Source of the DNA: Archangium gephyra
Lineage (GTDB): Bacteria > Myxococcota > Myxococcia > Myxococcales > Myxococcaceae
Direction of reading: 5' to 3'
DNA: 64,000 bases
Assembly (NCBI RefSeq): GCF_001027285.1
Contig: NZ_CP011509.1
Coordinates: 6,286,501 to 6,350,500 of the forward strand
Shown here: positions 26,288 to 56,968 of the stretch, piece by piece
Layout: each line of letters starts with the position of its first letter
How positions within the stretch are numbered: position 1 is the stretch's first letter
Notes under the pieces: generated by a model
What the model saw: the letters and a program-made list of their open reading frames with translations, nothing else
Told to the model about the DNA's origin: nothing
Database searches by the model: none
Made by a program: the position numbers and the translations under genes

Positions 26288-27424
26288 ATGTCCCGCGCCA
26301 CCCCTGACTTCGATCCCTCGACCGTCGACGTGGACGCCTTCCTGGCCGACATCCGCGCCCTGCGCACCGAGATGGATGCCTCCGTCAGCGAGGCGGACCT
26401 CGCCCACCTGCGGAAGATCGAGAACTGGGGCCGCGCGGCCTCCGTGCTCGGCCTGGCCACCTGCTGGATGATGCCCAACCCGCTCAGCGCCGCGGCCCTG
26501 GGGCTCGGCCGCTCCACGCGCTGGCTGCTCATGCACCACGTGGGTCACCGCGGCTACGACCGCGTCCCCGGCGCCCCCGTCGAGCGCACCAGCAAGGGCT
26601 TCGCCAAGGGCAACCGCCGCTTCGTCGACTGGCTCGATTGGATCCTCCCCGACGCCTGGGTCTACGAGCACAACGTCCTCCACCACTCGCACACCGGCGA
26701 GGACGCGGACCCGGATCTCCTCGAGCGCAACGCCGAGGGCACCCTGCGCAACCCCCACCGCCCGCTCGCCCTGCGCTACCTCCAGCTCGTCCTGCTCGCC
26801 ATCACCTGGCGCGCCAGCTACTACTCCCCCGAGACGCTCGCCTCGCTGCGCCGCAAGCACCGCCCCGGCGGCCCCCTCACCCGCGAGGAGTGGCGCGAGG
26901 TGCTGCTCAGCGGTTACGCCCCCTACATCCTCTGGAACTTCGCCGTCCTCCCCGCGCTCTTCCTGCCCCTGGGCGCCTGGGCCGGCTTCAGCGCCCTGTG
27001 CAACTCGCTCATGGCCGAGGTCATCACCAACGTGCACACCTTCCTCGTCGTGGGCCCCAACCACACCGGCGAGGATCTCTACCGCTTCGACTCCAAGCCG
27101 GAGAACAAGGGCGAGCGCTACCTCCAGCAGGTGATCGGCAGCGCCAACTACCGCACCGGGGGCGATCTCAACGACTACCTGCACCTCTGGCTCAACTACC
27201 AGATCGAGCACCACATCTTCCCCGACCTCTCCATGCTCCAGTACCAGCGCATGCAGCCCAAGGTGCGCGCGCTCTGCGAGAAGTACGGCATTCCCTACGT
27301 CCAGGAGAGCGTCTGGACGCGCGCGCGGAAGATGGTGGACATCGTCGTGGGCAAGGCCTCCATGCGCCGGCTCCCGCGCCGTGAGGCGGCTCCGGCTTCC
27401 GGTCCCCTCCCCGAAGTCGCGTGA
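26288..27424 (+). CDS. Membrane fatty acid desaturase
   Basis: 378 residues from the ATG at 26288. The three histidine clusters of di-iron membrane desaturases are present: HHVGH at 83-87, HNVLHH at 128-133 and QIEHHIFP at 305-312. The glutamine in the third box is the mark of front-end (delta-5/6-like) desaturases, but the cytochrome b5 domain of that class is absent. Two long hydrophobic regions (around residues 50-75 and 210-250) fit the usual topology. It probably inserts a double bond in membrane phospholipid acyl chains. A small AsnC-type gene starts 15 bases downstream. Confidence 0.9.
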   Translation: MSRATPDFDPSTVDVDAFLADIRALRTEMDASVSEADLAHLRKIENWGRAASVLGLATCWMMPNPLSAAALGLGRSTRWLLMHHVGHRGYDRVPGAPVERTSKGFAKGNRRFVDWLDWILPDAWVYEHNVLHHSHTGEDADPDLLERNAEGTLRNPHRPLALRYLQLVLLAITWRASYYSPETLASLRRKHRPGGPLTREEWREVLLSGYAPYILWNFAVLPALFLPLGAWAGFSALCNSLMAEVITNVHTFLVVGPNHTGEDLYRFDSKPENKGERYLQQVIGSANYRTGGDLNDYLHLWLNYQIEHHIFPDLSMLQYQRMQPKVRALCEKYGIPYVQESVWTRARKMVDIVVGKASMRRLPRREAAPASGPLPEVA

Positions 27425-27438
27425 TAGGGTGCTCGCCC

Positions 27439-27678
27439 GTGCACACCATCTTCGTCATGATCAAGTGTGAGCTGGGGCAGACCTACAAGACCGCCGCGAT
27501 GATCGCCGACCAGGTCGACGAGGCGGCCGAGGTCTACTCCACCTCCGGCGGCTACGATCTGCTCGCCAAGTTCCACCTCGACAAGGACCAGGACCTCGGC
27601 CGCTTCGTCACCGAGCGCATCCAGACCCTGCCCGGTGTCAAAGACACCTACACCATCACCACCTTCAAGGCCTTCTGA
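27439..27678 (+). CDS. Stand-alone Lrp/AsnC ligand-binding (RAM) domain protein
   Basis: 79 residues from the GTG at 27439 (MHTIFVMIKCELGQ). It is the alpha/beta ligand-binding half of Lrp/AsnC regulators (VYSTSGGYDLLAKFHL, then a C-terminal VKDTYTITTFKAF strand) without the helix-turn-helix. Such small proteins form dimers or octamers and bind amino acids or similar effectors. Being 15 bases after the desaturase it is likely cotranscribed. A GTG at 27421 would overlap the desaturase stop codon and is less likely. Confidence 0.85.
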   Translation: MHTIFVMIKCELGQTYKTAAMIADQVDEAAEVYSTSGGYDLLAKFHLDKDQDLGRFVTERIQTLPGVKDTYTITTFKAF

Positions 27679-27714
27679 ACCTGGACTCCGGGTGTACCCA
27701 GCGGTGTCGGAGAA

Positions 27715-27751
27715 ACACTTCATTCCAGTGAATCAGGAAAAGTGTGGAATG
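27715..27751. other. Interleaved inverted repeats upstream of the PhnD-type kinase gene
   Basis: ACACTT-CATTCCA ... AAGTGT-GGAATG: two six-base complementary pairs in order 1-2-1'-2'. They could form alternative hairpins in a transcript or be a protein-binding site. Located 85-121 bases before the kinase start. Confidence 0.3.
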
Positions 27752-27835
27752 GGCTGAAAATATCGTGCATCATGGCTGCCGCAACGAACTTGGGCCGCCC
27801 CCGGGCCCTGGGGGGTAACCAAGGAGGCAGCGCAC

Positions 27836-30046
27836 GTGATCACGCCGACCACCCCCATCCGCTTCATGCTCTACCCGTCACTCGGCGAGGTGAGGGAGCA
27901 CGTTCGTGTGGAGCTGTTCGGGCGAGCGCTGTCGGAGCGGCTGGGCCGGCCGGTGGTGCTGGAGCTGGCGCCCACGTACGAGGCGCTGGAGGCGGAGCTG
28001 GCGGCGGGCCGGGTGGACATGGCGTGGGCCACGGCCGAGCAGTGTGATGCCTTCGCGCCGAGGGCGCGGGCGGTCCTGCGGGCGGTGCGCTCGGGCAGCT
28101 GCCACTACCACTCCGCCCTGGTGTGCCGCTCGGAGGAGCCGCTCACCCTGGAGACGCTGAAGGGCAAGCGCGCCGCCTGGGTGGCGCCTCGCTCCACCGG
28201 GGGGCACCTGTTGCCGGTGCGCTTCCTGGAGTCGCGGGGGTTGCGCACCCAGGAGCTCTTCTCCGAGCAGCGCTTCTGGGGCACCTACCGCAAGGCCTTC
28301 CAGGCGCTGCTCGACGGCGAGGCGGATGTGGCCGCCATCTTCTCCAACCACGCGGACGAGCATGCCATGCGCGCCACCCTGGCCTCGTACGTGGGAGCGG
28401 AGGAGCCCAGGCTCATGACGTTCGCCTTCACCCCGCCCACGCTGGCCGACGGCATCGTCCTCACCCGGCGGCTGTCCGAGGCCGACGCGGCCGCGCTGGT
28501 GTCCGTGCTCACGCGGATGAACACGGACGGCTCGGGCCTGGAGATGTTGATGGGGCCGTTCCGGGTGGAGGGCTTCGTCCTGTCGCCGGATGGGCGGGAG
28601 CAGGCCCCGGTCCCCCGCAGGTCGCGCAGCGCCGAGTACGTGGTGGCGGAGCTGGACGGCGAGGAGCGGTGCCGGCGGCTGTGGTCGCCCACGGGCAGGG
28701 CCTTTGGCCGGGACGTGAGCGACGCCGAGGGGCGCACGCTGACGGAGGTGCTGGGGACGGAGGCCGCCGAGCCGCTGCTGTCGCTGATGCGCGCGGTGCG
28801 CCACGGCGGGGCGGATGGACGGCTGGAGTACCGGCTGGAGGTGGAGGGCGAGACGCGCTGGTACGCGGCGGAGATCACCCCGTGCGCTCCGGTGCCCGGC
28901 GAGACGCGGCCGCGCCTGGGGCTGATGGTGCGCGACGTGTCGGGGATGCGCGCGCTGGAGGATCCGATGTACCGGCTGGCCTCCTTCCCGCTGCTGCACC
29001 CGGAGCCGCTGCTGGAGCTGAGCCTGGAGGGCGAGCTGCGCTACGCCAACCCGGCCACGCACAAGGCCTTCCCGGAGCTGCTGGTGGAGGGCGGAAAGCA
29101 CCCGCTGGTGCAGGCGGCGATGCAGTGGTCCTGGCGGGGCGCGCCCGCGGGCGAGCCCGCTCCCACGGTGCACCTGGAGGGCCGCTACTGGGAGCTGACG
29201 GTGACGCAGCTGTGTGATCCGGCGGGCCTGCGGGTGTTCGCCCGGGACGTGACGCTGCGCAAGCAGATGGAGGCGCGGCTCATCCAGGCGGATCGGCTCT
29301 CGGCGCTGGGCTCGCTGGCGGCGGCGGTGGGGCACGAGATGAACAACCCGCTGGCCTTCATGCTGGCCAACCTCTCCTACGCGCGCGAGGAGCTGGAGCG
29401 CATGGGCGAGTCACTGCGGGGCCAGGACGAGGCCGTGGCGCAGGAGCTGGGCGAGGTGCTGGAGGCCCTGTCCGAGACGGCCGAGGGGGCGCTGCGGCTC
29501 AAGCACATCGTGCAGGATCTCCGGACGCTCTCGCGCAAGCCGCCGGAGCACCAGGCGCGGGTGGAGCTGCAGCCGGTGCTGGAGAACGCGCTGAAGCTCA
29601 TCCGCGGACAGATCGGCCAGCGGGGCCGGCTGGAGCGGGACTTCTTCGAGCTGCCCGCGGTGGACGCGGACGAGGCCCGGCTCACCCAGCTCTTCCTCAA
29701 CCTGCTGAGTAACGCGTTGCAGTCGATGAACCCGGCGGACGCCGCGCGCAACGTGCTGCGGGTGGCCGCCTACACCGGCGAGGACGGGGAGGCGGTGGTG
29801 GAGGTGCAGGACACGGGCAAGGGCCTGGCGCCCGAGGCGCTCTCGCGCATCTTCGAGCCCTTCGTCGCCACGGTGCCCGGCAGCTCGGGCCTGGGGCTGT
29901 CGGTGAGCCACGCCATCGTCACCAGCCTGGGCGGCACGCTGCGCGCGGAGAGCCGCGAGGGCCGGGGCACCCTCATCACCATCACCCTGCCCGCGGCGGC
30001 TGCCGAGTCCGCTCCGTCCCGTCAGCAGGTGCTGCTGGCCGGGTAG
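27836..30046 (+). CDS. Histidine kinase with a PhnD/SsuA-like substrate-binding sensor domain and PAS domains
   Basis: 736 residues. The GTG start at 27836 has a perfect AAGGAGG ten bases upstream. Residues 1-250 resemble the periplasmic phosphonate/sulfonate-binding (PhnD-type) fold: IRFMLYPSLGEVREHV, AAWVAPRSTGGHLLPV, RMNTDGSGLEMLMG. There is no signal peptide or membrane helix, so the domain is cytoplasmic. Two PAS-like segments follow (~265-370 and ~375-470). The HisKA H-box is GHEMNNPLAFM near residue 502, and the ATPase domain has LFLNLLSNALQSM, DTGKGLAP and SGLGLSVSHAIV. It is a complete cytoplasmic kinase, with no receiver or response regulator beside it. Confidence 0.88.
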   Translation: MITPTTPIRFMLYPSLGEVREHVRVELFGRALSERLGRPVVLELAPTYEALEAELAAGRVDMAWATAEQCDAFAPRARAVLRAVRSGSCHYHSALVCRSEEPLTLETLKGKRAAWVAPRSTGGHLLPVRFLESRGLRTQELFSEQRFWGTYRKAFQALLDGEADVAAIFSNHADEHAMRATLASYVGAEEPRLMTFAFTPPTLADGIVLTRRLSEADAAALVSVLTRMNTDGSGLEMLMGPFRVEGFVLSPDGREQAPVPRRSRSAEYVVAELDGEERCRRLWSPTGRAFGRDVSDAEGRTLTEVLGTEAAEPLLSLMRAVRHGGADGRLEYRLEVEGETRWYAAEITPCAPVPGETRPRLGLMVRDVSGMRALEDPMYRLASFPLLHPEPLLELSLEGELRYANPATHKAFPELLVEGGKHPLVQAAMQWSWRGAPAGEPAPTVHLEGRYWELTVTQLCDPAGLRVFARDVTLRKQMEARLIQADRLSALGSLAAAVGHEMNNPLAFMLANLSYAREELERMGESLRGQDEAVAQELGEVLEALSETAEGALRLKHIVQDLRTLSRKPPEHQARVELQPVLENALKLIRGQIGQRGRLERDFFELPAVDADEARLTQLFLNLLSNALQSMNPADAARNVLRVAAYTGEDGEAVVEVQDTGKGLAPEALSRIFEPFVATVPGSSGLGLSVSHAIVTSLGGTLRAESREGRGTLITITLPAAAAESAPSRQQVLLAG

Positions 30047-35509: not shown

Positions 35510-36850
<1,341 letters not shown>

Positions 36851-36913
36851 GTCCGCCGTCCATAGCACCTTCCGTCCGGGGAGGGCACGCGGCGAGGAAG
36901 CACGGGCACGCCC

Positions 36914-36952
36914 GCGTCACGCCTCCTCGTCCCCCCGGCCTTCGAGCAGGGC
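36914..36952. repeat. 39-bp direct repeat, left copy (kinase tail duplicate)
   Basis: Matches 41519-41557 at 38 of 39 positions. Read on the minus strand it encodes ALLEGRGDEEA and a stop, the exact C-terminus of the Ser/Thr kinase at the right border; the single difference (GGG for GGA) is synonymous. Similarity stops sharply on both sides. Confidence 0.85.
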
Positions 36953-37009
36953 CCAAATCCCATATCGCCTCTCGGGGGCGGTGGGTGTAGGTAGAGAGTG
37001 GTGTCATCC

Positions 37010-37479
37010 ATGTCGGAGGAGCGCGGGATGTCGGGTGCGTCGCAACCGCCTCAGGAGCCCCTCGAGTTGCTCATCGCTCAGGGGCTCGCGCTCTGTCGCT
37101 ACCCTGGAAGGACTACGAGGCCTATGCGGCGAAGGTGCTTCGCTGGGAGCGCTTGTTGCCCACGAGCCCCAAGGGAAGGCTCCTGTTCCTCTGGTCCGAC
37201 GACGGCTTCTCTTCGATGGAGGTTGCGCGGGACCAACTCATGTGGCCTTGCCTGCTTGCGGTGCGCGAGGAGATGTCTCGCGGTGCATTTCCACTTGTCT
37301 GGCTCGAGCAGATGGGGGCTCCCGTGTGGAAGGAGTCCATCTCTAGCGCGGGGAACCCATTTGTCTGTTCCGGGATGGACGGTGGCTCCGCGCCCGTCAC
37401 GGAGATGGCCCTTTGCGACGGAGGCTCCGTGCTAGGGTCCGCGCTGTCCACGGCCTGTGTCTGGCCCGGGTGGACATGA
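37010..37479 (+). pseudogene. Frameshifted small gene upstream of the protease module
   Basis: The ATG at 37010 opens MSEERGMSGASQPPQEPLEL, whose plausible reading ends near 37105. There the coding character moves to another frame (LPWKDYEAYAAKVLRWERLL), which continues to a stop at 37479. Joined, the product would be ~155 residues and of unknown family, with FLWSDDGFSSMEVARDQ and VWLEQMGAP segments. A single-base indel near 37100 explains it, either real decay or a sequencing error. It is in line with, and 16 bases before, the metalloprotease gene, and lies inside the 39-bp-repeat-bounded segment. Confidence 0.45.
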
Positions 37480-37495: not shown

Positions 37496-38179
37496 ATGAC
37501 CCAGGAAGAGTTGGACAAGCTTCACGTGTGTGTTGACAGGCGAGTCGTGCCTGTTGGCCAGGCCGAGCGGATGGCCCTGGTCAAGGATTGCAGGTGGACG
37601 GACGATTCCCTCAGCATCCGTTTCCTCGATGGGGATCCCGGCCTGCAGGAGCGGGTCAAGAAGGTCGCTCGGATCTGGACCGAGTTCGCGAACATCAAAT
37701 TCCTCTTCGGCAACGACCCGGAGGCGCAGATCCGCATCTCCTTCAAGGAGCGCGGGTCCTGGTCCTATGTGGGCACCCAGTGCCTGGGCATCGCGAAGCA
37801 CGCGCCCACCATGAACTTCGGCTGGCTGACTCCCGCGACCGGGGACGAGGAAGTGATGCGGGTCGTCCTGCACGAGTTCGGCCACGCCCTCGGCTGCATC
37901 CACGAGCACCAGAACCCCGCCGGTGGCATCCAGTGGAACAAGGAGGCCGTGTACGCGTACTACTCGGGGCATCCCAACTACTGGTCCCGGAAGGACGTCG
38001 ATACGAACCTCTTCCAGCTCTACGACAAGGATCTGACGGCGCACACCCAGCTCGATCCGCACTCCATCATGCTGTACCCCGTCCCCGCCGCGTTCACCCT
38101 GGACGGCAAGGCGATCGGGGGTTCCAACAAAGTCCTCTCCGACATGGACAAGGAGTTCATTGGCAAGCTGTATCCTTGA
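37496..38179 (+). CDS. Astacin-like zinc metalloprotease (free copy)
   Basis: 227 residues from the ATG at 37496, with GGAGGGG seven bases upstream. The metzincin zinc site is complete: HEFGHALGCIHEH at 126-138 (His126, His130, His136; Glu127 catalytic), and a Met-turn SIMLYP at 190-195. The HExxHxxGxxHE pattern is that of astacin-like M12 enzymes. No signal peptide or propeptide is evident, so it may act in the cytoplasm, unusual for this class. The same domain recurs at the end of the third gene of the module with about 60% visible identity (IRISFKERGSWSYVGT vs IRISFRERGSWSFVGT). The caspase gene follows by 32 bases. Confidence 0.9.
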   Translation: MTQEELDKLHVCVDRRVVPVGQAERMALVKDCRWTDDSLSIRFLDGDPGLQERVKKVARIWTEFANIKFLFGNDPEAQIRISFKERGSWSYVGTQCLGIAKHAPTMNFGWLTPATGDEEVMRVVLHEFGHALGCIHEHQNPAGGIQWNKEAVYAYYSGHPNYWSRKDVDTNLFQLYDKDLTAHTQLDPHSIMLYPVPAAFTLDGKAIGGSNKVLSDMDKEFIGKLYP

Positions 38180-38211
38180 GCGGGTTCGCGCGGGGATGAA
38201 GGACGGCAGCG

Positions 38212-39246
38212 ATGAACGCGGATGATTTTGGAATTGTCGTGGGCATCAACCACTACCCGGAGCTGGGCAACCTCGGTGGCCCCGAGAACGATGCCCGGGA
38301 CTTCCGGGAGTGGTTGATCTCCACGGAGGGAGGTGCCGTCCCTCCAGACAACGTCACCCTGATCACCTGTCCCCAACCGCCGGCCAGCTCGCCCTGGGAG
38401 GCGCGGCCCACGACCGTGGAGCTCGACACGGCCTTCGAGCGGCTGTTGGTGCGCGCCGACGAGGAGGGCCGCGGAGGGTTCGCGGGGCGCCGCCTGTACA
38501 TCTTCCTCGCGGGTCATGGCTTCGCCCAGAACATCGAGGACGCCGCGCTGCTGATGGCCAACGCGGGCAAGACGCGGACAGGGCACCACATTCCGGGCCG
38601 GCCCTACGCCAACTCGTTCCGCGAGGCGGCCTATTTCCGGGAGGTGGTGCTGTTCATGGACTGCTGCCGGGAGAACTACCGGAAGCCCGTGGGCCGGAAG
38701 CAACCCCCCTGGGACGAAGAGCGCAACCCCTCCCGCGCCATCAACGTGCGGCACTTCTATGGCTTCGCGACCGAGTGGTCCCGCGCCGCGCGCGAGATGC
38801 CTCATCAGCCCGATCTCCAGGTCCGCGGCCACTTCACCACGGCGTTGCTCGCCGGTCTGCGCGGAGGCGCGGCCGATGAGCACGGGCGCATCACGGGGAA
38901 GGCGCTCAAGAACTTCGTTCTCAACTACCTGCCCTCGCTGCTTCCGCCCGGGCAGCCGCAGGTGCCTGTCTTCGATTTCGACGACACGAAGGACATCGAG
39001 TTCGGGACCACGCGGATTCCCAGGATCCGCGTGGAGATTCACCTCTCCGGGTCCAATGTCGGCAAGGACGTCCTGCTTCGTGACGGGAATCTGCAGCCGA
39101 TGCCCGGCACGGCGCTTCGTGTGAGTCCGGAGCTGTGGGAGGCCCAGCTCCTGCGCGGGCTCTACCAGGTGAGCATCCCGGGGGGCGAGTCCAAGATGTT
39201 CCAGGTTCTCGGAGACGAGACGGGAGAGGTCCATGTCAACCTCTGA
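38212..39246 (+). CDS. Caspase-like cysteine protease (peptidase C14 family)
   Basis: 344 residues. The N-terminal p20-like domain starts FGIVVGINHYPELGNLGGPENDA, a standard bacterial caspase opening. The catalytic His is H102 in YIFLAGHGFA; the Cys is C152 in VVLFMDCCREN (D-x-C pattern). After ~270 a beta-rich C-terminal domain appears (RIRVEIHLSGSNVGKDVLL ... RGLYQVSIPGG) that resembles the opening domain of the next gene's product. No signal peptide. Its last 14 bases overlap the next gene, showing coupled translation. Bacterial caspase-like proteases act in cell-death and conflict systems; the partners here suggest one. Confidence 0.9.
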   Translation: MNADDFGIVVGINHYPELGNLGGPENDARDFREWLISTEGGAVPPDNVTLITCPQPPASSPWEARPTTVELDTAFERLLVRADEEGRGGFAGRRLYIFLAGHGFAQNIEDAALLMANAGKTRTGHHIPGRPYANSFREAAYFREVVLFMDCCRENYRKPVGRKQPPWDEERNPSRAINVRHFYGFATEWSRAAREMPHQPDLQVRGHFTTALLAGLRGGAADEHGRITGKALKNFVLNYLPSLLPPGQPQVPVFDFDDTKDIEFGTTRIPRIRVEIHLSGSNVGKDVLLRDGNLQPMPGTALRVSPELWEAQLLRGLYQVSIPGGESKMFQVLGDETGEVHVNL

Positions 39247-41515
39247 GCCCCAGGCGAGCAAGGTGCGGCTGGAGATTCGTGGCCGTGAGCCGGAGACCGA
39301 GATCTCGGTCATCGACAGCTCCTTCCGGACCCTCGAGTGTCAGATGGATCACCTCGTGACCGAGCTGCCGCCCGGTCTGTACAAGATCCGGTTCCGGGTG
39401 GGGCCGTTCCTGCAGGAGCTCCATCAAGCCCTGGAGCCTGGGAGCCAGGGGGTGTTGGTGGAAGCGCCGTGGATGCGCTTCGATTCACCTGCTCCCCTGG
39501 CGAACACCCGGTTGACCCACGAGTACCACGAGGAGGCGGCCGAGAAGTTGAGCAGGAGCGATCGGGTCCATGTCCAGCTGGGCGCCGGGAGTCGGCTCTT
39601 CGTCTTCACGCGGGACTGGGAACTCAAGGGAGAGGGACACCCCGCCAACGGGCTGTCCCTGCACGACGTGGAGGGCCGGCTGCTGGTCGAATTCTGGCGG
39701 GCGGGCGAGCAGGGCGGGGCGGGGCTGGATGCCTGGGCCGCCTGTCACCTCGAGCTGAAGCCCGGCTCGTATCGCCTTCGGGTCGATGCGGGGCCGGAGG
39801 GCGTATTCGAGCAGATCATCGTGACGTGTGCGGGCTGGCAGACGCAGGTGTTCCTGCTGCGGACGCGGTATGGCGTTCACGACGACGCACCGTGGAGGCC
39901 GGATCTGTCCAACGCCTCCATCCTCATGGAGCACGCGAGCCAGGACAGAGGGTTCCAGGCCTGGGACGAGCGGCTCCGGCTCGCCGAGCTGGCCCGGCTC
40001 TCGTTGGGTGGCCGCCAGCCCTACCTGCTCCAGAAACATCTGGGCGAGTTGCTGAAGGGGAAGTTCGAGAACCCCATGCTCGGCCTTTATGCCGCGCATG
40101 CTCTGCTTGAGAATCGCACCTCGGCGCCAGCGTCGGTCGACTCCCACCGCCCGCTCCTGCACGAGGTGGTGTCCAACCTCCAGGGGCTCATCCCGGGTCA
40201 TCCCGATGTGGAGGCCTTGCGGCTCTGGTTGGAGCTCGTCTCGCCCGAGACGCTCAGCGGACGCTACGCCAGCCCTCCGATGCTGCGCGGCAGCTGGTCC
40301 ATCATCGTGGAGAAGACGGGAACGCATCCCGCGCTCATCCCCGCGGACTCGCTCGCGGCGCGGATCTCGCGGAACGTCTGGGGCAGCAGCCCCTGGCTCA
40401 TCTGGCAGCTCGAGAACGCTCCGGCTCCGCATCGGGTCGCGACTCCCTTCATGCTGGAGATGCTGGGGTCACCCGCCGGAGAGGCGAGTCCCCTGGAGAG
40501 CCTGGAGCTCCTCAGCTTCCTCTCGGCGGACAGCGCCCTCTCGATGGAGCCGGAGCGGGGGGCGGAATGGGACGAGGTGGAGGAATCCCTCCTGGAGCTG
40601 CTGAGGCGCAAGTCCTCCCGGGGCGCACTGCGCGGCGCCTCGCCAGACACGCGGTCGCTCCTCGCGAGCCTGGAGACACTGACCCTTCCCCAGCTCGTGC
40701 GCCATCTGGAACTGCCCTCCTCGACGGTCGAGGCCGCGGTCTCCAAGTTGCGCGAGAAGCTGCGCGAGCAGCACAAGGCCCGCGTCTTGAGGGCCCGGAT
40801 GGGGCCTCCGCGTCCTTCGCAGCCCCAGAAGAGCCTGGGGCTGGCGGAGGGGCTGCATGTCTGTATCGACAGGAGTGAGGGGCAGCCCCGTGATGCCCTG
40901 GCCCGGAGGTCCTGGATGAAATCCCGCGGGTGGGCGCCCGGCCGTGTCCTCCGTGTGGGTTTCCTCGATGGAGACCCGGTGCTTCAGGAGCGGGTGCGGC
41001 ACGTCGCGAGTCTCTGGACCCAGGAGGCGGACGTCCGTTTCCGTTTCGAGAAGACCGCGGAGGCGGAGATCCGGATCTCCTTCCGCGAGCGGGGCTCCTG
41101 GTCCTTCGTGGGGACGGATTGTCTACGCGTTCCACGGAGCCAGCCCACCATGAACTTCGGCTGGCTGACCCTGGCCTCCCCGGACCCGGAGGTGTCGGCT
41201 GTCGTGCTGCACGAGTTCGGTCACGCGCTGGGCTGCCTGCACGAGCACCACACTCCCCCCGGAGGCATTGCGTGGAACAAGCAGGCCATCTACGCCTGCT
41301 TCCAGGGGGCGCCGACCTTCTGGACTCGCGAGGAGGTGGATCGCCACTTCTTCGGACTCTACGAACAGGACCTCACCGTTCACGACCAGTCCGATACCCG
41401 GTCCATCATGCTGAATCCCATCCCCCCGGAGTTCACGCTGAACGGGTTCCACGTGGGCTTCAACACCCGCCTCTCCGAGCGGGACAAGGCCTTCATCCGT
41501 CAGCTCTACCCCTGA
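39233..41515 (+). CDS. Multidomain protein with C-terminal astacin-like metalloprotease
   Basis: 760 residues. The start (KVRLEIRGREPETEISVID ... LPPGLYKIRFRVG) is a beta domain like the tail of the upstream caspase. A second beta domain covers ~100-220 (HLELKPGSYRLRVDAG). A mostly helical middle of ~300 residues has no recognised family. The last ~200 residues are a second copy of the metalloprotease, with HEFGHALGCLHEH near 660-672, Met-turn SIMLNP, and the same KAFIRQLYP/KEFIGKLYP end. No signal peptide. It could be a sensor or platform carrying its own effector, activated by the caspase or cleaving the same targets. It overlaps the caspase gene by 14 bases and ends just before the right 39-bp repeat. 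Confidence 0.88.
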   Translation: MSTSEPQASKVRLEIRGREPETEISVIDSSFRTLECQMDHLVTELPPGLYKIRFRVGPFLQELHQALEPGSQGVLVEAPWMRFDSPAPLANTRLTHEYHEEAAEKLSRSDRVHVQLGAGSRLFVFTRDWELKGEGHPANGLSLHDVEGRLLVEFWRAGEQGGAGLDAWAACHLELKPGSYRLRVDAGPEGVFEQIIVTCAGWQTQVFLLRTRYGVHDDAPWRPDLSNASILMEHASQDRGFQAWDERLRLAELARLSLGGRQPYLLQKHLGELLKGKFENPMLGLYAAHALLENRTSAPASVDSHRPLLHEVVSNLQGLIPGHPDVEALRLWLELVSPETLSGRYASPPMLRGSWSIIVEKTGTHPALIPADSLAARISRNVWGSSPWLIWQLENAPAPHRVATPFMLEMLGSPAGEASPLESLELLSFLSADSALSMEPERGAEWDEVEESLLELLRRKSSRGALRGASPDTRSLLASLETLTLPQLVRHLELPSSTVEAAVSKLREKLREQHKARVLRARMGPPRPSQPQKSLGLAEGLHVCIDRSEGQPRDALARRSWMKSRGWAPGRVLRVGFLDGDPVLQERVRHVASLWTQEADVRFRFEKTAEAEIRISFRERGSWSFVGTDCLRVPRSQPTMNFGWLTLASPDPEVSAVVLHEFGHALGCLHEHHTPPGGIAWNKQAIYACFQGAPTFWTREEVDRHFFGLYEQDLTVHDQSDTRSIMLNPIPPEFTLNGFHVGFNTRLSERDKAFIRQLYP

Positions 41516-45476: not shown

Positions 45477-46613
45477 TCAACCAAGCACGGCGTCACGGAC
45501 CTCCTGGAGCTCGCCGAAGACGTAGCGCCGCCGCTGCCCGTCATGGCCCAGCCATCGCTGGAGCAGCACGAGGTAGGCCTTGGCCTCGGGAGGCTGGCCG
45601 GGCTGGAGGACGAGCTTGAGGTGGTTGAGGCGGCGCAGGAAGACGGGGAGGATTTTGGCGCCGAGCGAGGCGGAGAGCGCTCGCAGGTTGCCCGGGAGGG
45701 CCTCGGGGCGAGCGCGCAGGTGGGTATGCCCCAACCAGTCCACGAGGGCGTCCCGCTTGGCGCGCAGGCACAGACCCTGGGTGACGAGCGCGTCCAGCAG
45801 CGAGGCCCAGCGCTCGGAGTCGGCCTCGTGCAGGCTGTCGGAGAGGTGGCACTCCACGCCCAGCCTGGGCAGCACGGCCGGGCCCACGTCGAGGCTCAAC
45901 GCCATGCGCTCCACCCGGCCCGCCACCCGGGCGAGCAGCGCCTCCACGTCGCGGGTGTCTCCGGGCCAGCCGACGCGGGCCAGGTACGCGGGCAGGGTGC
46001 CAGGCCCCAGGCCCTGGAGACACAGCCGCACGCCGTCGAAGCGGCGGGAGAACATGGCGCCCACGGCGGACACGTAGCCCCCGGCGGGCAGGGCCGCCAG
46101 ACACGCCACCACCCGCTCCCGGACGGCGGGCGCGAGCGGCTCGCCCCACAGCAGCGCCAGGGATTCCTCCAGGGCCTCCAGGCGGCGCCAGGCCCGCCGG
46201 TCATATTCGATGAAGAAGGAGGGGATGGGCACCGGGGGCGGTGTCCCCTCGACGTCGAACTCCAGGAAGACGTCGCTGAGCTCCTCTTCCAGCAGGGTTC
46301 CCGGGGTGTCCCAGCGCGCGCCGAAGCGGCGCAGGCGCTGCCAGACGGGGTGGGCGAAGAGCGAGGAGGGCAGGGCGGTGCCAGCGTCCACGCGGCCCGC
46401 GAGCAGGGCGCGGCTGCCATCGCTGGCGAGGAAGCGGACGCCGAAGTCGGCCTGTGCCTCCTCCTTGCCCAACCGGCACTCGAAGCCGGAGGCGGACACG
46501 GGCGGCATCAGGCGGGCGAGCCGCTCCAGGTCCGCCAGCGCCGTGGGTGAGATGAGCCGGGGAGAGAGGTAGGGCTCGGCGAGTCTCAGGTACTCATTCA
46601 ACGCGGTGGACAT
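45477..46613 (-). CDS. Uncharacterised partner protein in the peptide cluster
   Basis: 378 residues from the ATG at 46611-46613, with a GGGGGAA seven bases upstream. A longer start would lie inside the hairpin after the peptide gene. No known motif is visible: no Walker, radical-SAM CxxxCxxC, ATP-grasp, LanM or peptidase signature. There are two similar halves of alternating strands and helices (IPSFFIEYDRRAWRRLEALEE; LGVECHLSDSLHEADSERW). It lies 89 bases downstream of a 39-residue Gly-Gly peptide gene, separated by a terminator-like hairpin. By position it could modify, bind or export-couple the peptide. Assignment rests on context only. Confidence 0.6.
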   Translation of the reverse strand: MSTALNEYLRLAEPYLSPRLISPTALADLERLARLMPPVSASGFECRLGKEEAQADFGVRFLASDGSRALLAGRVDAGTALPSSLFAHPVWQRLRRFGARWDTPGTLLEEELSDVFLEFDVEGTPPPVPIPSFFIEYDRRAWRRLEALEESLALLWGEPLAPAVRERVVACLAALPAGGYVSAVGAMFSRRFDGVRLCLQGLGPGTLPAYLARVGWPGDTRDVEALLARVAGRVERMALSLDVGPAVLPRLGVECHLSDSLHEADSERWASLLDALVTQGLCLRAKRDALVDWLGHTHLRARPEALPGNLRALSASLGAKILPVFLRRLNHLKLVLQPGQPPEAKAYLVLLQRWLGHDGQRRRYVFGELQEVRDAVLG

Positions 46614-46630
46614 GCGATTCCCCCGGGCTC

Positions 46631-46672
46631 GGGAAAAGACAACGGACGGGTGCTCCGGATGCACCCGTCCGT
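46631..46672 (-). terminator. Terminator/attenuator hairpin after the peptide gene
   Basis: Perfect 12-bp stem ACGGACGGGTGC / GCACCCGTCCGT with a 7-base loop (46642-46672). Read on the minus strand it is followed by TTGTCTTTTCCC. It should end most transcripts just after the peptide gene, with some readthrough to the partner gene. Confidence 0.75.
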
Positions 46673-46702
46673 GGTGATGGCAGGTATGCCGTCCTGGTGT
46701 GA

Positions 46703-46822
46703 CTACTCCCAGGCCTGCGTGGCGCTCAGCTCCTGCGCGCCGCCGGAGATGAGATCATCCAGCGCCTCGTCGTTGAGCTCGGTGAGGTTGGCGGTCTGCT
46801 CGGCGATGTTCTCGTTCATCAT
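46703..46822 (-). CDS. Small Gly-Gly-leader peptide (putative RiPP precursor)
   Basis: 39 residues, start at 46820-46822 (two Met in tandem), with AGGGAGG seven bases upstream. The first ~28 residues are an acidic amphipathic leader containing TELNDEALDDLISGG, the E-L-x-D-E-x-L-D-x-L-x-GG form of leaders cleaved after Gly-Gly by C39-type peptidases. The remainder is an 11-residue core, AQELSATQAWE, with Ser, Thr and Trp but no Cys. It has its own promoter and a terminator, the expression layout of a RiPP precursor. Flanking genes encode a terpene-cyclase-fold protein and an unknown protein. No LanM, YcaO or radical-SAM enzyme is nearby, so any modification would be of an unusual kind. The peptide itself is plain in the sequence; its processing is inferred. 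Confidence 0.7.
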   Translation of the reverse strand: MMNENIAEQTANLTELNDEALDDLISGGAQELSATQAWE

Positions 46823-46920
46823 GGCATTGCCCTCCCTTGGGTGTGAAACCCCAGACAAGACTCATCATCCGTCCGGGGGCGCCCGGCGGAGAGTCATCCC
46901 CGCCGCCGGAAGCGATTCGA

Positions 46921-46949
46921 AATATGGAGAAAGGCATTTCCAAAGTCAA
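46921..46949 (-). promoter_or_regulatory. Sigma-70-type promoter of the Gly-Gly peptide gene
   Basis: On the minus strand: TTGACT (46949-46944), a 17-base spacer, CATATT (46926-46921). Both hexamers match the consensus well and lie in an AT-rich patch. Predicted start near 46914 gives a ~92-base leader before the peptide ATG. Confidence 0.6.
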
Positions 46950-47035
46950 ATCAATCAGCGTCAGGGATGGATGTCTTTGATTGCGTGTGAAAGATCCATG
47001 GGCGCGCGAACGGGAAAGACGGGGGAGGTGTGATG

Positions 47036-48127
47036 TCAGGGATTGCCGCGCGAGCCGGAGCGCGAGGCGGCGAGAAAGTCCACCAGGGCTGACACCACCG
47101 TGGCGGTGGTGAAGAGGCGGTTGCGATCCGTCAGCACGGGCAGGAGGAGACAGCCCTCGGGATCCTCCCAGGGCGCATGCACCTCGGGGCGGGGCATCCG
47201 CATGATGGGGACGTGCGCCCAGCTCCCATCCGGTTGCTGGGCCCGCAGCAACCACCGGAGGCCGGCGTCGAGCGCGGCGCCGTGGCGGGCGCGTCCTCCA
47301 TCGAGGAGCAGCACCGGCAGGGCGAGCGCGGTGTGGAAGGCGGCGGCCTCGCTCCCCGTGCCGTTGCCCCAGCCTCCACCGGGTTGCTGCGCCCCCCGCA
47401 GCCAGTGGGCGGCGCGCGTCACGGGCCCGGTGTCTCCCAGGAGGAACAGCAACCGCGCCGCGTGCGTGGTGGTGTACGTGCGGCCGTGCCACCAATAGGC
47501 TTCCCAGAAGCCCTCGGGCGACTGGCTGTCGCGCAGCAGGCGGGCGCAGGCCTCGAGGACGGGGCGGTGGCGTGGGTCTCCCGCGGCGTGCAGGGCCTCC
47601 GCCGCCAGCGCGGTGACACACAGGTGGATGTCACACCAACTGCTGCCCGGGTAGCTGGCCCAGCCATTCAGCGAGGGCCGCTCGGCGGGGCGGTAGGTGC
47701 GAAAGCCCCTCCCGGGCTCATCCCAATACCGCAGCAATTGCGCGCACGCCTCCCCGAGCGCCGCGTCCCATTCCGGCGCGCCCCGCCAGTGCGAGAGGAA
47801 TCGCACCACGTTGGCGGTGGAGTCCGCGTCCGCGGGCGTCGCCAGGCTGAAACCCCACCCACCCCCGGGGTGCGAATGACTCATCAACCAGTCCCGCGCC
47901 GGCTCCAGCGTGGCCGGGCCCGCCCCCGCACGGGCCAGGGCCTCGCCGGCATACGCCGTCACCCATTGCGAGCTGATGACGTCCCGGTCTCCCACCACGA
48001 AGCGGAAGCGGAAATCCAGCCAGCGTCCATCCGCCGTCCGCGCCTTCTCCAGGAAGCGCACGGCCCTCGCGAGGGCCTCGGTGACAGCGGATTCCCTCGC
48101 GTCCTCGTGTTCCAGGCTTGCCTGCAT
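47036..48127 (-). CDS. Prenyltransferase/squalene-cyclase-fold (alpha-alpha toroid) protein
   Basis: 363 residues from the ATG at 48125-48127, with GGGGAGGG just upstream. Repeated QxxGGGWG-type motifs (SHPGGGWGFS, QQPGGGWGNG, QQPDGSWAHV) mark the alpha-alpha toroid of class II terpene cyclases and protein prenyltransferase beta subunits. The class II acid motif DxDDTA is present as DADSTA (residues 100-105), with Ser in place of the final Asp. It is about half the length of squalene-hopene cyclase. There is no signal peptide. It lies 213 bases upstream of the Gly-Gly peptide gene on the same strand. It could act on an isoprenoid or on the peptide; neither is proven. Confidence 0.78.
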   Translation of the reverse strand: MQASLEHEDARESAVTEALARAVRFLEKARTADGRWLDFRFRFVVGDRDVISSQWVTAYAGEALARAGAGPATLEPARDWLMSHSHPGGGWGFSLATPADADSTANVVRFLSHWRGAPEWDAALGEACAQLLRYWDEPGRGFRTYRPAERPSLNGWASYPGSSWCDIHLCVTALAAEALHAAGDPRHRPVLEACARLLRDSQSPEGFWEAYWWHGRTYTTTHAARLLFLLGDTGPVTRAAHWLRGAQQPGGGWGNGTGSEAAAFHTALALPVLLLDGGRARHGAALDAGLRWLLRAQQPDGSWAHVPIMRMPRPEVHAPWEDPEGCLLLPVLTDRNRLFTTATVVSALVDFLAASRSGSRGNP

Positions 48128-55969: not shown

Positions 55970-56968
55970 ATGACGATGGCGACGCAGCTGGATGCACCCT
56001 CCGCGGACAAGTTTCCAGAGGTCGGAGAACTCAAGACACACAATCACCTGTTGGGAGACCTGGAGGCGCTCGATGCCGCATGGGAGCGGGACGGGTACTG
56101 GTTTTTCCGCGACGTGTTCGACAAGGACGCTGTCGCACGCCTGCGCAAGTCATGGGTCGATGTCCTGGAGCGGGAAGGCGTGATCGACCCGGTCGGCGAT
56201 GCCCCGACCGACAGGAGCATCCGCTACAATGGCGCGAGCCTGGAATCATTTCCGTTCCGCATGGAGCCGCTGGTGGCGCTCAAGCCTTGGCGGACGTTCG
56301 TGGAGGAAAAGCCGATCCACGACTTCTTCACCAGATTGTTCGACGACGAGCCATTCTGGGTACCCGTCGTTGAATATCGCGCGACCCCGCCGCAAGAGGA
56401 CCGCAATCGGCCGCGCATCGACGGCATCCACCAAGACGGGCCCTACAGTCCCGGCATCCCCTTCCGCATCTGCTGGATTCCGCTAGCGGAGATCGACGCC
56501 GAAACCGGCGGCGTGATGCTGGCGGAGGGCATGACCGAAAAAATCAACCGTCACCCCAGGGATGCGGGCGGTACCAATGCCTTCATCCGGCTTGAAGATG
56601 TTCCTGCCGATCGCTGGAGGCGGACCACCTATCAGGCAGGCGACGTCCTGCTGATGAACCTGTGGACGCCGCATACGGGCCTTGCCAATCGCTCCGACCG
56701 TTTCCGGCTGTCGATGGACCATCGCGTCATGGCAAGGCGCGACAAATGCCCGATCGTGGGGCATGTGGAGGAGATCAGCGAACAGCATGTCGTCGTGCGG
56801 GATGCCGGGGGACGGCATGTACTGAGCATCGACCCCGACACCTATGTCCGCAACGATCAGGGCAAGAAGCTCAGTGGCCCAGGGATCGCCGAATGGTATC
56901 GGCCGGGGTCGGAGGTCATCATCGCCCATGATGGCGACAGGGCCTCGGTGGTGCGGCCGCCCCATTGA
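55970..56968 (+). CDS. Phytanoyl-CoA dioxygenase (PhyH) family oxygenase
   Basis: 332 residues. The ATG at 55970 follows GAGGAAAGG, overlapping the start by spacing of one base; a second Met two codons in may be the real start. A non-heme Fe(II)/2-oxoglutarate enzyme: H154-x-D156 in GIHQDGPYSP and distal H235 in LWTPHTGLANRSDRFRLS, with the Arg after it as the co-substrate ligand. Members hydroxylate lipids or natural products. It is followed after 39 bases by a lipocalin-like gene, likely in the same operon, and is divergent from a GlxA-type regulator. Base composition differs from the core genes. Confidence 0.88.
   Translation: MTMATQLDAPSADKFPEVGELKTHNHLLGDLEALDAAWERDGYWFFRDVFDKDAVARLRKSWVDVLEREGVIDPVGDAPTDRSIRYNGASLESFPFRMEPLVALKPWRTFVEEKPIHDFFTRLFDDEPFWVPVVEYRATPPQEDRNRPRIDGIHQDGPYSPGIPFRICWIPLAEIDAETGGVMLAEGMTEKINRHPRDAGGTNAFIRLEDVPADRWRRTTYQAGDVLLMNLWTPHTGLANRSDRFRLSMDHRVMARRDKCPIVGHVEEISEQHVVVRDAGGRHVLSIDPDTYVRNDQGKKLSGPGIAEWYRPGSEVIIAHDGDRASVVRPPH

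Follow-up and report, generated by a model that had tools for sequence, protein, structure and literature searches.

A putative three-gene pathway for a terpene-modified ribosomal peptide in Archangium gephyra

A stretch of 64,000 nucleotides from the genome of Archangium gephyra (contig NZ_CP011509.1, positions 6,286,501 to 6,350,500), hereafter called the window, contains a cassette of three genes coding for a 363 amino acid alpha-alpha-toroid protein, hereafter called the toroid, a peptide of 39 amino acids and a protein of 378 amino acids. The cassette is conserved and combines a precursor peptide, a prenyltransferase with the ABBA fold (by model) and an MstE-type cyclase, without LanM, a C39 transporter or cysteine in the peptide core. 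It probably represents a minimal pathway for a ribosomally synthesized and post-translationally modified peptide (RiPP), in which a tryptophan of the peptide would be prenylated and the attached terpene then cyclised, the mechanism being proposed at the level of its class.

The genes follow each other on the minus strand in the order toroid, peptide, 378 amino acid protein and a TIGR02265/DUF2378 gene (Table 1), the last of which had been missed in an earlier note on this DNA made from the sequence alone; the open reading frame (ORF) of 39 residues, its place between the two large genes and the common strand were confirmed as given in that note. Genes were called with a codon-usage script. Among 195 Myxococcota genomes, the toroid was found at 70 % identity or more in at least six, and the peptide, at E ≤ 7.2e-12, in an identical set of six, namely the window's genome and G004, G002, G032, G417 and G418. 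In the surveys of these genomes for the toroid and for the prenyltransferase family the best ten or fewer candidates per genome were scored, and members may have been missed. One scan of genome contigs gave five loci. The cyclase, peptide and 378 amino acid genes are adjacent and on a common strand at six of six loci. This fits the earlier note, which took the peptide for a RiPP-type precursor that the toroid or its partner modifies or binds; both large proteins are likely to be modifying enzymes of the peptide. A 206 amino acid gene with matching ends (by eye) comes next in the other five loci, its counterpart in the window being the DUF2378 gene. Across two genera the identity to the window's proteins is 69-92 % for the prenyltransferase and 70-89 % for the cyclase, and both genes are open.

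A further genome of the same genus, G005 (locus L045), has a decayed cassette at L045:9500-10100, in which the 378 amino acid gene is reduced to fragments and the cyclase to a piece of 44 residues, and a search for the peptide gave chance-level matches only. The 206 amino acid gene is intact beside the decay; its reading frame is open in L045 despite the decay of the cassette, with 90.5 % identity (blastn) between L029 and L045. The earlier note had proposed checking whether the peptide is conserved in genomes which have the two large genes; it is present wherever both are intact, at all six loci, and the opposite outcome was not seen.

The peptide has a predicted leader of residues 1-28 (MMNENIAEQTANLTELNDEALDDLISGG, ending DEALDDLISGG) and a predicted core of residues 29-39 (AQELSATQAWE), and a ribosome-binding site, GGGAGGG, lies upstream of its ORF. 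The core AQELSxTQAW(E/Q) is found in all six orthologues, three of which have Gly-Gly at the end of the leader and three Gly-Glu (L030, L139, L140). The nonsynonymous substitution rate (dN) was below the synonymous rate (dS) in six of six pairs, drawn from four of the six orthologues, with dN/dS about 0.25-0.52. Between the window and G032, 99 of 117 coding bases are kept, whereas the two flanking spacers keep 119 of 213 and 50 of 84 aligned bases, and the sole length change among the orthologues (L139) is one whole extra residue. Because it is conserved with the toroid in the same six genomes, has dN below dS and lies between less conserved spacers, the peptide is a real gene under purifying selection, and a chance ORF was ruled out by the conservation in six genomes together with the dN/dS values.

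Tryptophan is the only invariant core residue in eight aligned precursors, four of the window type and four Cys-rich lanthipeptide precursors, and it is present in all 16 accepted myxobacterial precursors. These were collected with a regular expression, of which three matches inside another gene (L030, L139, L140) were discounted; the precursors of L146, L147, L151 and L109 were missed by the expression and come from separate readings of the loci.

Neither the 378 amino acid protein nor the peptide had a match in Pfam or NCBIfam, and a PDB sequence search with the profile of the 378 amino acid protein gave nothing at E ≤ 1. The earlier note had described this protein as of no known family, a description which its predicted structure overturns. 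The AlphaFold2 model from six sequences (predicted local distance difference test, pLDDT, 82.4; predicted template modelling score 0.84) contains five helix-helix-strand-strand (alpha-alpha-beta-beta) units. Foldseek gave 22 matches at E ≤ 0.001, every one of them to aromatic or indole prenyltransferases, which we take to be of the ABBA type, and all 50 rows shown by VIA-align are prenyltransferases, headed by CymD (Z 17.8, root-mean-square deviation 4.1, 295 residues aligned) and followed by MpnD, PriB and IptA. These four use tryptophan or indole substrates, judging by their titles. For these four, Foldseek gives moderate TM-scores (0.35-0.52 on the query), so that the comparison speaks for the fold of the 378 amino acid protein and not for its detailed geometry. 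Residues E45, R47, E118, D120, R190, R196, K333, K345 and Y347 are invariant in the six-row alignment and are candidates for the charged residues which hold the diphosphate in an ABBA barrel and for the acidic base. By its predicted structure the protein is an ABBA-barrel prenyltransferase, and its family is found in at least 29 of the 195 Myxococcota genomes at E ≤ 1e-15.

The toroid is letter-identical over 363 residues (phmmer, 100 %) to the protein of PDB entry 8PAJ, which is titled 'Squalene-Hopene cyclase from Archangium gephyra'. Its solved relatives are 8PAJ, then 8PAK from Cystobacter fuscus, which carries the same squalene-hopene cyclase title and, over the stretch that was printed, looks the same by eye as the cyclase of L030, and then MstE (6SBx entries; 6SBG at E 5.2e-28 over residues 16-350). 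An AlphaFold model of the toroid from two rows was poor (pLDDT 47), and only the titles of 8PAJ, 8PAK and MstE were taken from its structure search. Like the toroid, MstE (PDB 6SBB-6SBG) has one domain of about 360 amino acids with DAD[ST]T, WCxxHxCV and YWW stretches. The D-A-D-S-T of the toroid aligns with D-A-D-T-T of MstE, placing Asp102 at the position of D109 with a one-residue numbering offset inferred from the mutant names in PDB titles. MstE D109N is a mutant named in such a title, and Asp109 is its catalytic aspartate. An aspartate is found at this position in all seven aligned cyclases, which share D-[AG]-D-[ST]-T and YWW-x4-Y-[TSCA]-T. By sequence the toroid belongs to the monodomain class II terpene cyclases of MstE type, with predicted activity. 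A role as a LanC-like or farnesyltransferase-beta-like peptide binder was discarded, since beyond 8PAJ and 8PAK the closest relatives of known structure are MstE-type cyclases.

Enzymes of both kinds have been described together. According to a review (PMC13290415), ribosomal peptides with prenylated and cyclised tryptophan were reported in 2024 (Hubrich et al. 2024, Chem 10:3224, as the source for NctPC and ChrPC): NctPC joins an ABBA prenyltransferase and an MstE-like cyclase in one fused enzyme, which geranylgeranylates tryptophan and then cyclises it, and ChrPC has P and C domains. The statement in the earlier note that the peptide belongs to a class not covered by known enzymes was therefore too strong, given an ABBA prenyltransferase, an MstE-type cyclase and these peptides. 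Compared by domain type and not by sequence, the window resembles these systems in having a prenyltransferase and an MstE-like cyclase with a Trp-bearing ribosomal precursor, but it has two separate genes, in contrast to the fused NctPC and the P and C domains of ChrPC, and a Cys-free precursor of 39 amino acids. In the best reading the pathway belongs with the terpenoid RiPP class published in 2024, from which the separate enzymes and Cys-free core set it apart.

A second comparison is offered by MppC, which according to PMC12715784 geranylates Trp82 of a lanthipeptide, requires the leader and its L(X)4L motif as well as an N-terminal leader nucleus, and prefers C10. It is likened to the window's prenyltransferase by fold and setting, namely the ABBA fold, a tryptophan in a leader-bearing precursor and L(X)4L, but it works with LanM and a Nif11 leader, whereas the window has neither LanM nor the leader nucleus and has a cyclase adjoining.

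In the proposed pathway the prenyltransferase would dock on the leader through L(X)4L, as MppC does, and attach a C15 or C20 isoprenyl chain, supplied as the diphosphate, to the Trp38 indole. Asp102 of the toroid would then protonate the chain end and close rings on the peptide-bound chain, much as MstE does on a prenylated arene; the toroid probably does modify the peptide, as was suggested earlier. The product would be a lipopeptide of 11 residues, or of the uncut 39, with a terpene end which may bind a membrane or a receptor. The chain length at this locus is a guess, because MppC prefers C10 and needs a leader nucleus which the window precursor is without.

No LanM was found at E ≤ 1e-6 in the window or in the five sister loci (about 20 kb each) with one LanM query, in agreement with the earlier note, and no LanT/C39 transporter was found in the same stretches with one LanT query. 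None of the six window-type peptides has a core cysteine, and a lanthipeptide was rejected on these three grounds. YcaO, radical SAM and ATP-grasp proteins were looked for by Pfam only, in ten neighbouring ORFs, eight of which are called genes; the other two (36675-37346 and 38020-39312) were not kept by the gene caller. Cleavage of the Gly-Gly leader by a C39 peptidase, as assumed earlier, is doubtful with no such transporter seen in the window and half of the orthologues without Gly-Gly. Processing in trans is possible because two LanM-type (DUF4135) genes and eight C39 matches occur elsewhere in the genome, the nearest C39 transporter about 56 kb beyond the window.

Many relatives of the prenyltransferase are found beside RiPP genes. 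The nine myxobacterial loci of its nearest LanM-type relatives (L031, L032, L033, L057, L138, L141-L144), eight from one fork of the prenyltransferase tree plus L057, with L143 and L144 near-identical, all carry LanM and a C39-ABC transporter, together with a precursor whose leader end reads EL.[DN]E.L and whose core contains both Trp and Cys (e.g. KQVSSCCWESC, AASCDWCSC). The contig of L138 stops within LanM, after the order LanT, precursor, prenyltransferase and start of LanM. These class II lanthipeptide loci share with the window the leader end, the core tryptophan and a homologous prenyltransferase, but differ in having LanM, LanT and cysteines and no cyclase within the stretches read. 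A class II lanthipeptide has been reported from Archangium violaceum (PMC9576775). In cyanobacteria, with the best six or fewer candidates per genome scored, the family occurs in at least 21 of 291 genomes; of 24 places, 20 were read in wider stretches, and in 14 of these 20 a label at 1e-5 points to LanM, radical SAM or a Nif11 precursor (ten with LanM), while L097, L098 and L105 are RiPP-like by eye.

In a prenyltransferase tree of 53 rows (midpoint root) the six window-type proteins form a clade (support 99/96), with L138 (60 % identity) as sister (100/99) and then L032 (99/96), which shares one genome with L030; support drops to 86/89 at the fork which joins these with the remaining LanM-type rows. 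Proteins below 280 amino acids were omitted and those above 420 trimmed to their last 370 residues, and the tree was built without L057, L151, L152, L043 and the cyanobacterial L094-L096 and L108 (prenyltransferase dropped for ORF overlap). Over 26 residues of the leader end, the precursor of L138 and the window peptide share 65 % identity. From the tree placement, this likeness of the leaders and the tryptophan as the only shared core residue, the window type appears, by sequence, to have lost LanM, LanT, all cysteines and the leader's first half, and to have gained a cyclase; the locus would thus derive from a lanthipeptide cluster. The fuller proposal stands at about even chances: that a lanthipeptide lineage exchanged thioether for terpene rings, keeping the Trp prenyltransferase and recruiting a separate cyclase, and that it may now make an uncut 39-residue peptide whose penultimate tryptophan carries a polycyclic terpene as membrane anchor or signal. 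An uncut product is possible because half of the orthologues have lost the protease site.

Prenyltransferase and cyclase are also paired in L146, L147 and L151 of myxobacteria and in L109 of a cyanobacterium, where the genes form a row in the order precursor, prenyltransferase, cyclase; the cyclase is thus last, compared with first in the window. The core is SCTWGANCGK in L146, L147 and L151 and GCTWGVSCQSSSN in L109, with CTWGxxC as shared motif, and LanM is present in L146, L151 and L109. WelO5-like and PhyH-type oxygenases adjoin the row in L146. The L146, L147 and L109 prenyltransferases form their own clade (100/100, L151 not being in the tree); therefore the two enzymes came together on at least two occasions, or their pairing is old and was often lost.

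Several points weigh against the proposed pathway. Its steps are all read from genes, sequence and model, and the link to NctPC and MppC draws on fold, domain type and setting. The shortened precursor is without the leader nucleus that MppC needs, and Gly-Gly is missing at three of six loci. Among the relatives, no RiPP partner was recognised beside the prenyltransferase in the myxobacterial L035 and L148, no precursor, LanM or labelled radical SAM was found in three of the 20 cyanobacterial loci (L100-L102), the precursors of the cyanobacterial L058 and L090 end without tryptophan, and ten paralogues (L026, L027, L036-L042, L044) adjoin a protein of 164-201 amino acids instead. MstE, which acts on a prenylated dihydroxybenzoate, has Y157 and R337, for which no match is seen by eye in the window cyclase; the substrate must therefore differ from that of MstE.

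The solved complexes of MstE with prenylated dihydroxybenzoate (PDB titles), and the use of free tryptophan, indoles and small arenes by the best fold matches of the 378 amino acid protein, would suit a small-molecule meroterpenoid made by the two enzymes, with the peptide as a neighbour or regulator and not a substrate. This is unlikely, since the peptide is kept with the enzyme pair at six of six loci and retains L(X)4L and tryptophan, the relatives adjoin RiPP precursors and LanM, as in the labelled cyanobacterial loci, and Pfam named no arene-forming gene in the ten neighbouring ORFs. Less probable again is a prenylated peptide which the toroid binds or presents in lipidated form without cyclising it: the fourth position of the DxDD motif is serine and the two MstE residues are unmatched, but the aligned catalytic aspartate is present in seven of seven cyclases and MstE itself has D-A-D-T-T at this place. 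That the locus is a dying lanthipeptide cluster without product is hardly credible, for although LanM, LanT, the core cysteines and the N-terminal leader half are gone, G005 holds a decayed copy and Gly-Gly has been lost in half of the loci, the peptide is under purifying selection with a conserved core, the enzyme genes are open and conserved across two genera, and the cyclase is not seen in the LanM-type relatives. Prenylation and terpene cyclisation on the peptide remain the preferred reading.

Table 1 Features of the cassette, its neighbour and the second prenyltransferase-cyclase pairing
Feature	Position	Strand	Basis
Toroid, one-domain class II terpene cyclase (by sequence), 363 aa	47036..48127	(-)	Identity to PDB 8PAJ chain; Pfam SQHop_cyclase_C 5.6e-16
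Asp102 codon, D-A-D-S-T motif, predicted proton donor	47822..47824	(-)	HMMER alignment to MstE Asp109
Precursor peptide, 39 aa	46703..46822	(-)	Translation, orthologues, dN/dS, upstream ribosome-binding site
Leader motif L16-N-D-E-A-L21, L(X)4L	46760..46777	(-)	Sequence; motif required by MppC (PMC12715784)
Trp38 codon, predicted prenylation site	46709..46711	(-)	Alignment of precursors
ABBA-barrel prenyltransferase (predicted fold), 378 aa	45477..46613	(-)	AlphaFold2, Foldseek, VIA-align
TIGR02265/DUF2378 protein, 206 aa	44751..45371	(-)	Pfam 1.5e-33, NCBIfam 1.2e-39 (228-aa form)
Second-pairing loci	L146:10042-12459; L109:11741-14381		Precursor, prenyltransferase, cyclase in row

The 164-201 amino acid neighbour of the ten paralogues directly precedes the prenyltransferase gene (e.g. 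L026:9215-10783) and has a LigA-type leader-like start (Pfam LigA 1.4e-4 in L026, under the Pfam cut-off), a tryptophan at about the same place and then, by eye, an apparent Ig/TIG domain. A large kinase-like protein is often nearby. These paralogues possibly prenylate a small protein. Elsewhere in the family, the L060 member is fused to a methyltransferase, and in L034, L145, L149 and L150 the prenyltransferase domain has a long N-terminal extension with no assigned fold, for which, in the L034 type, a fused cyclase is suggested only by a weak profile match (E 0.0026, probability 11.7); a weak radical-SAM match lies close to the gene in L145 and L150.

In the Y157 region a tyrosine is retained in the cyclases of L146, L147 and L109. 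An MstE-like cyclase, 35-39 % identical to that of the window, is found at L177:9480-10397, with no related prenyltransferase within 20 kb. In the cyanobacterial L093:6155-9007 three genes in a row code for a Nif11 precursor, a prenyltransferase and a toroid-like protein bearing the motif DLDDTA, the last with a profile E of 3.3e-4 (probability 38) and a Pfam SQHop_cyclase_C match of 1.7e-5, below the cut-off.

Genes of 378, 79 and 736 amino acids at window positions 26288-30046 resemble, by eye, neighbours of the cassette elsewhere (all three in L029 and L045; in L030, L139 and L140 those printed), and their distance of about 15 kb from the window cassette suggests, by eye, a local rearrangement or insertion. 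A PhyH-type oxygenase gene (55970-56968, E 2.2e-7) lies on the opposite strand about 8 kb from the cassette, and PhyH-type oxygenases also occur in the L146 cluster.

In the literature search, outside which most subscription papers lie, no title or start of an abstract treated the locus, the cyclase or the PDB entries, and the entry names 8PAJ and 8PAK matched only unrelated papers. The locus offers a likely biological substrate for these two crystal structures, whose titles say no more than squalene-hopene cyclase, and draws attention to a prenyltransferase family with a window member that neither Pfam nor NCBIfam names. If the proposed pathway is true, it would be, to our knowledge, the smallest terpenoid RiPP pathway, with one peptide and two enzymes, and would provide a system of three genes for placing ring terpenes on peptides, in which the enzymes are separate and the cyclase structure is solved. 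It would also be a clear example of a change of chemistry in a RiPP pathway that retains its leader motif and target residue.

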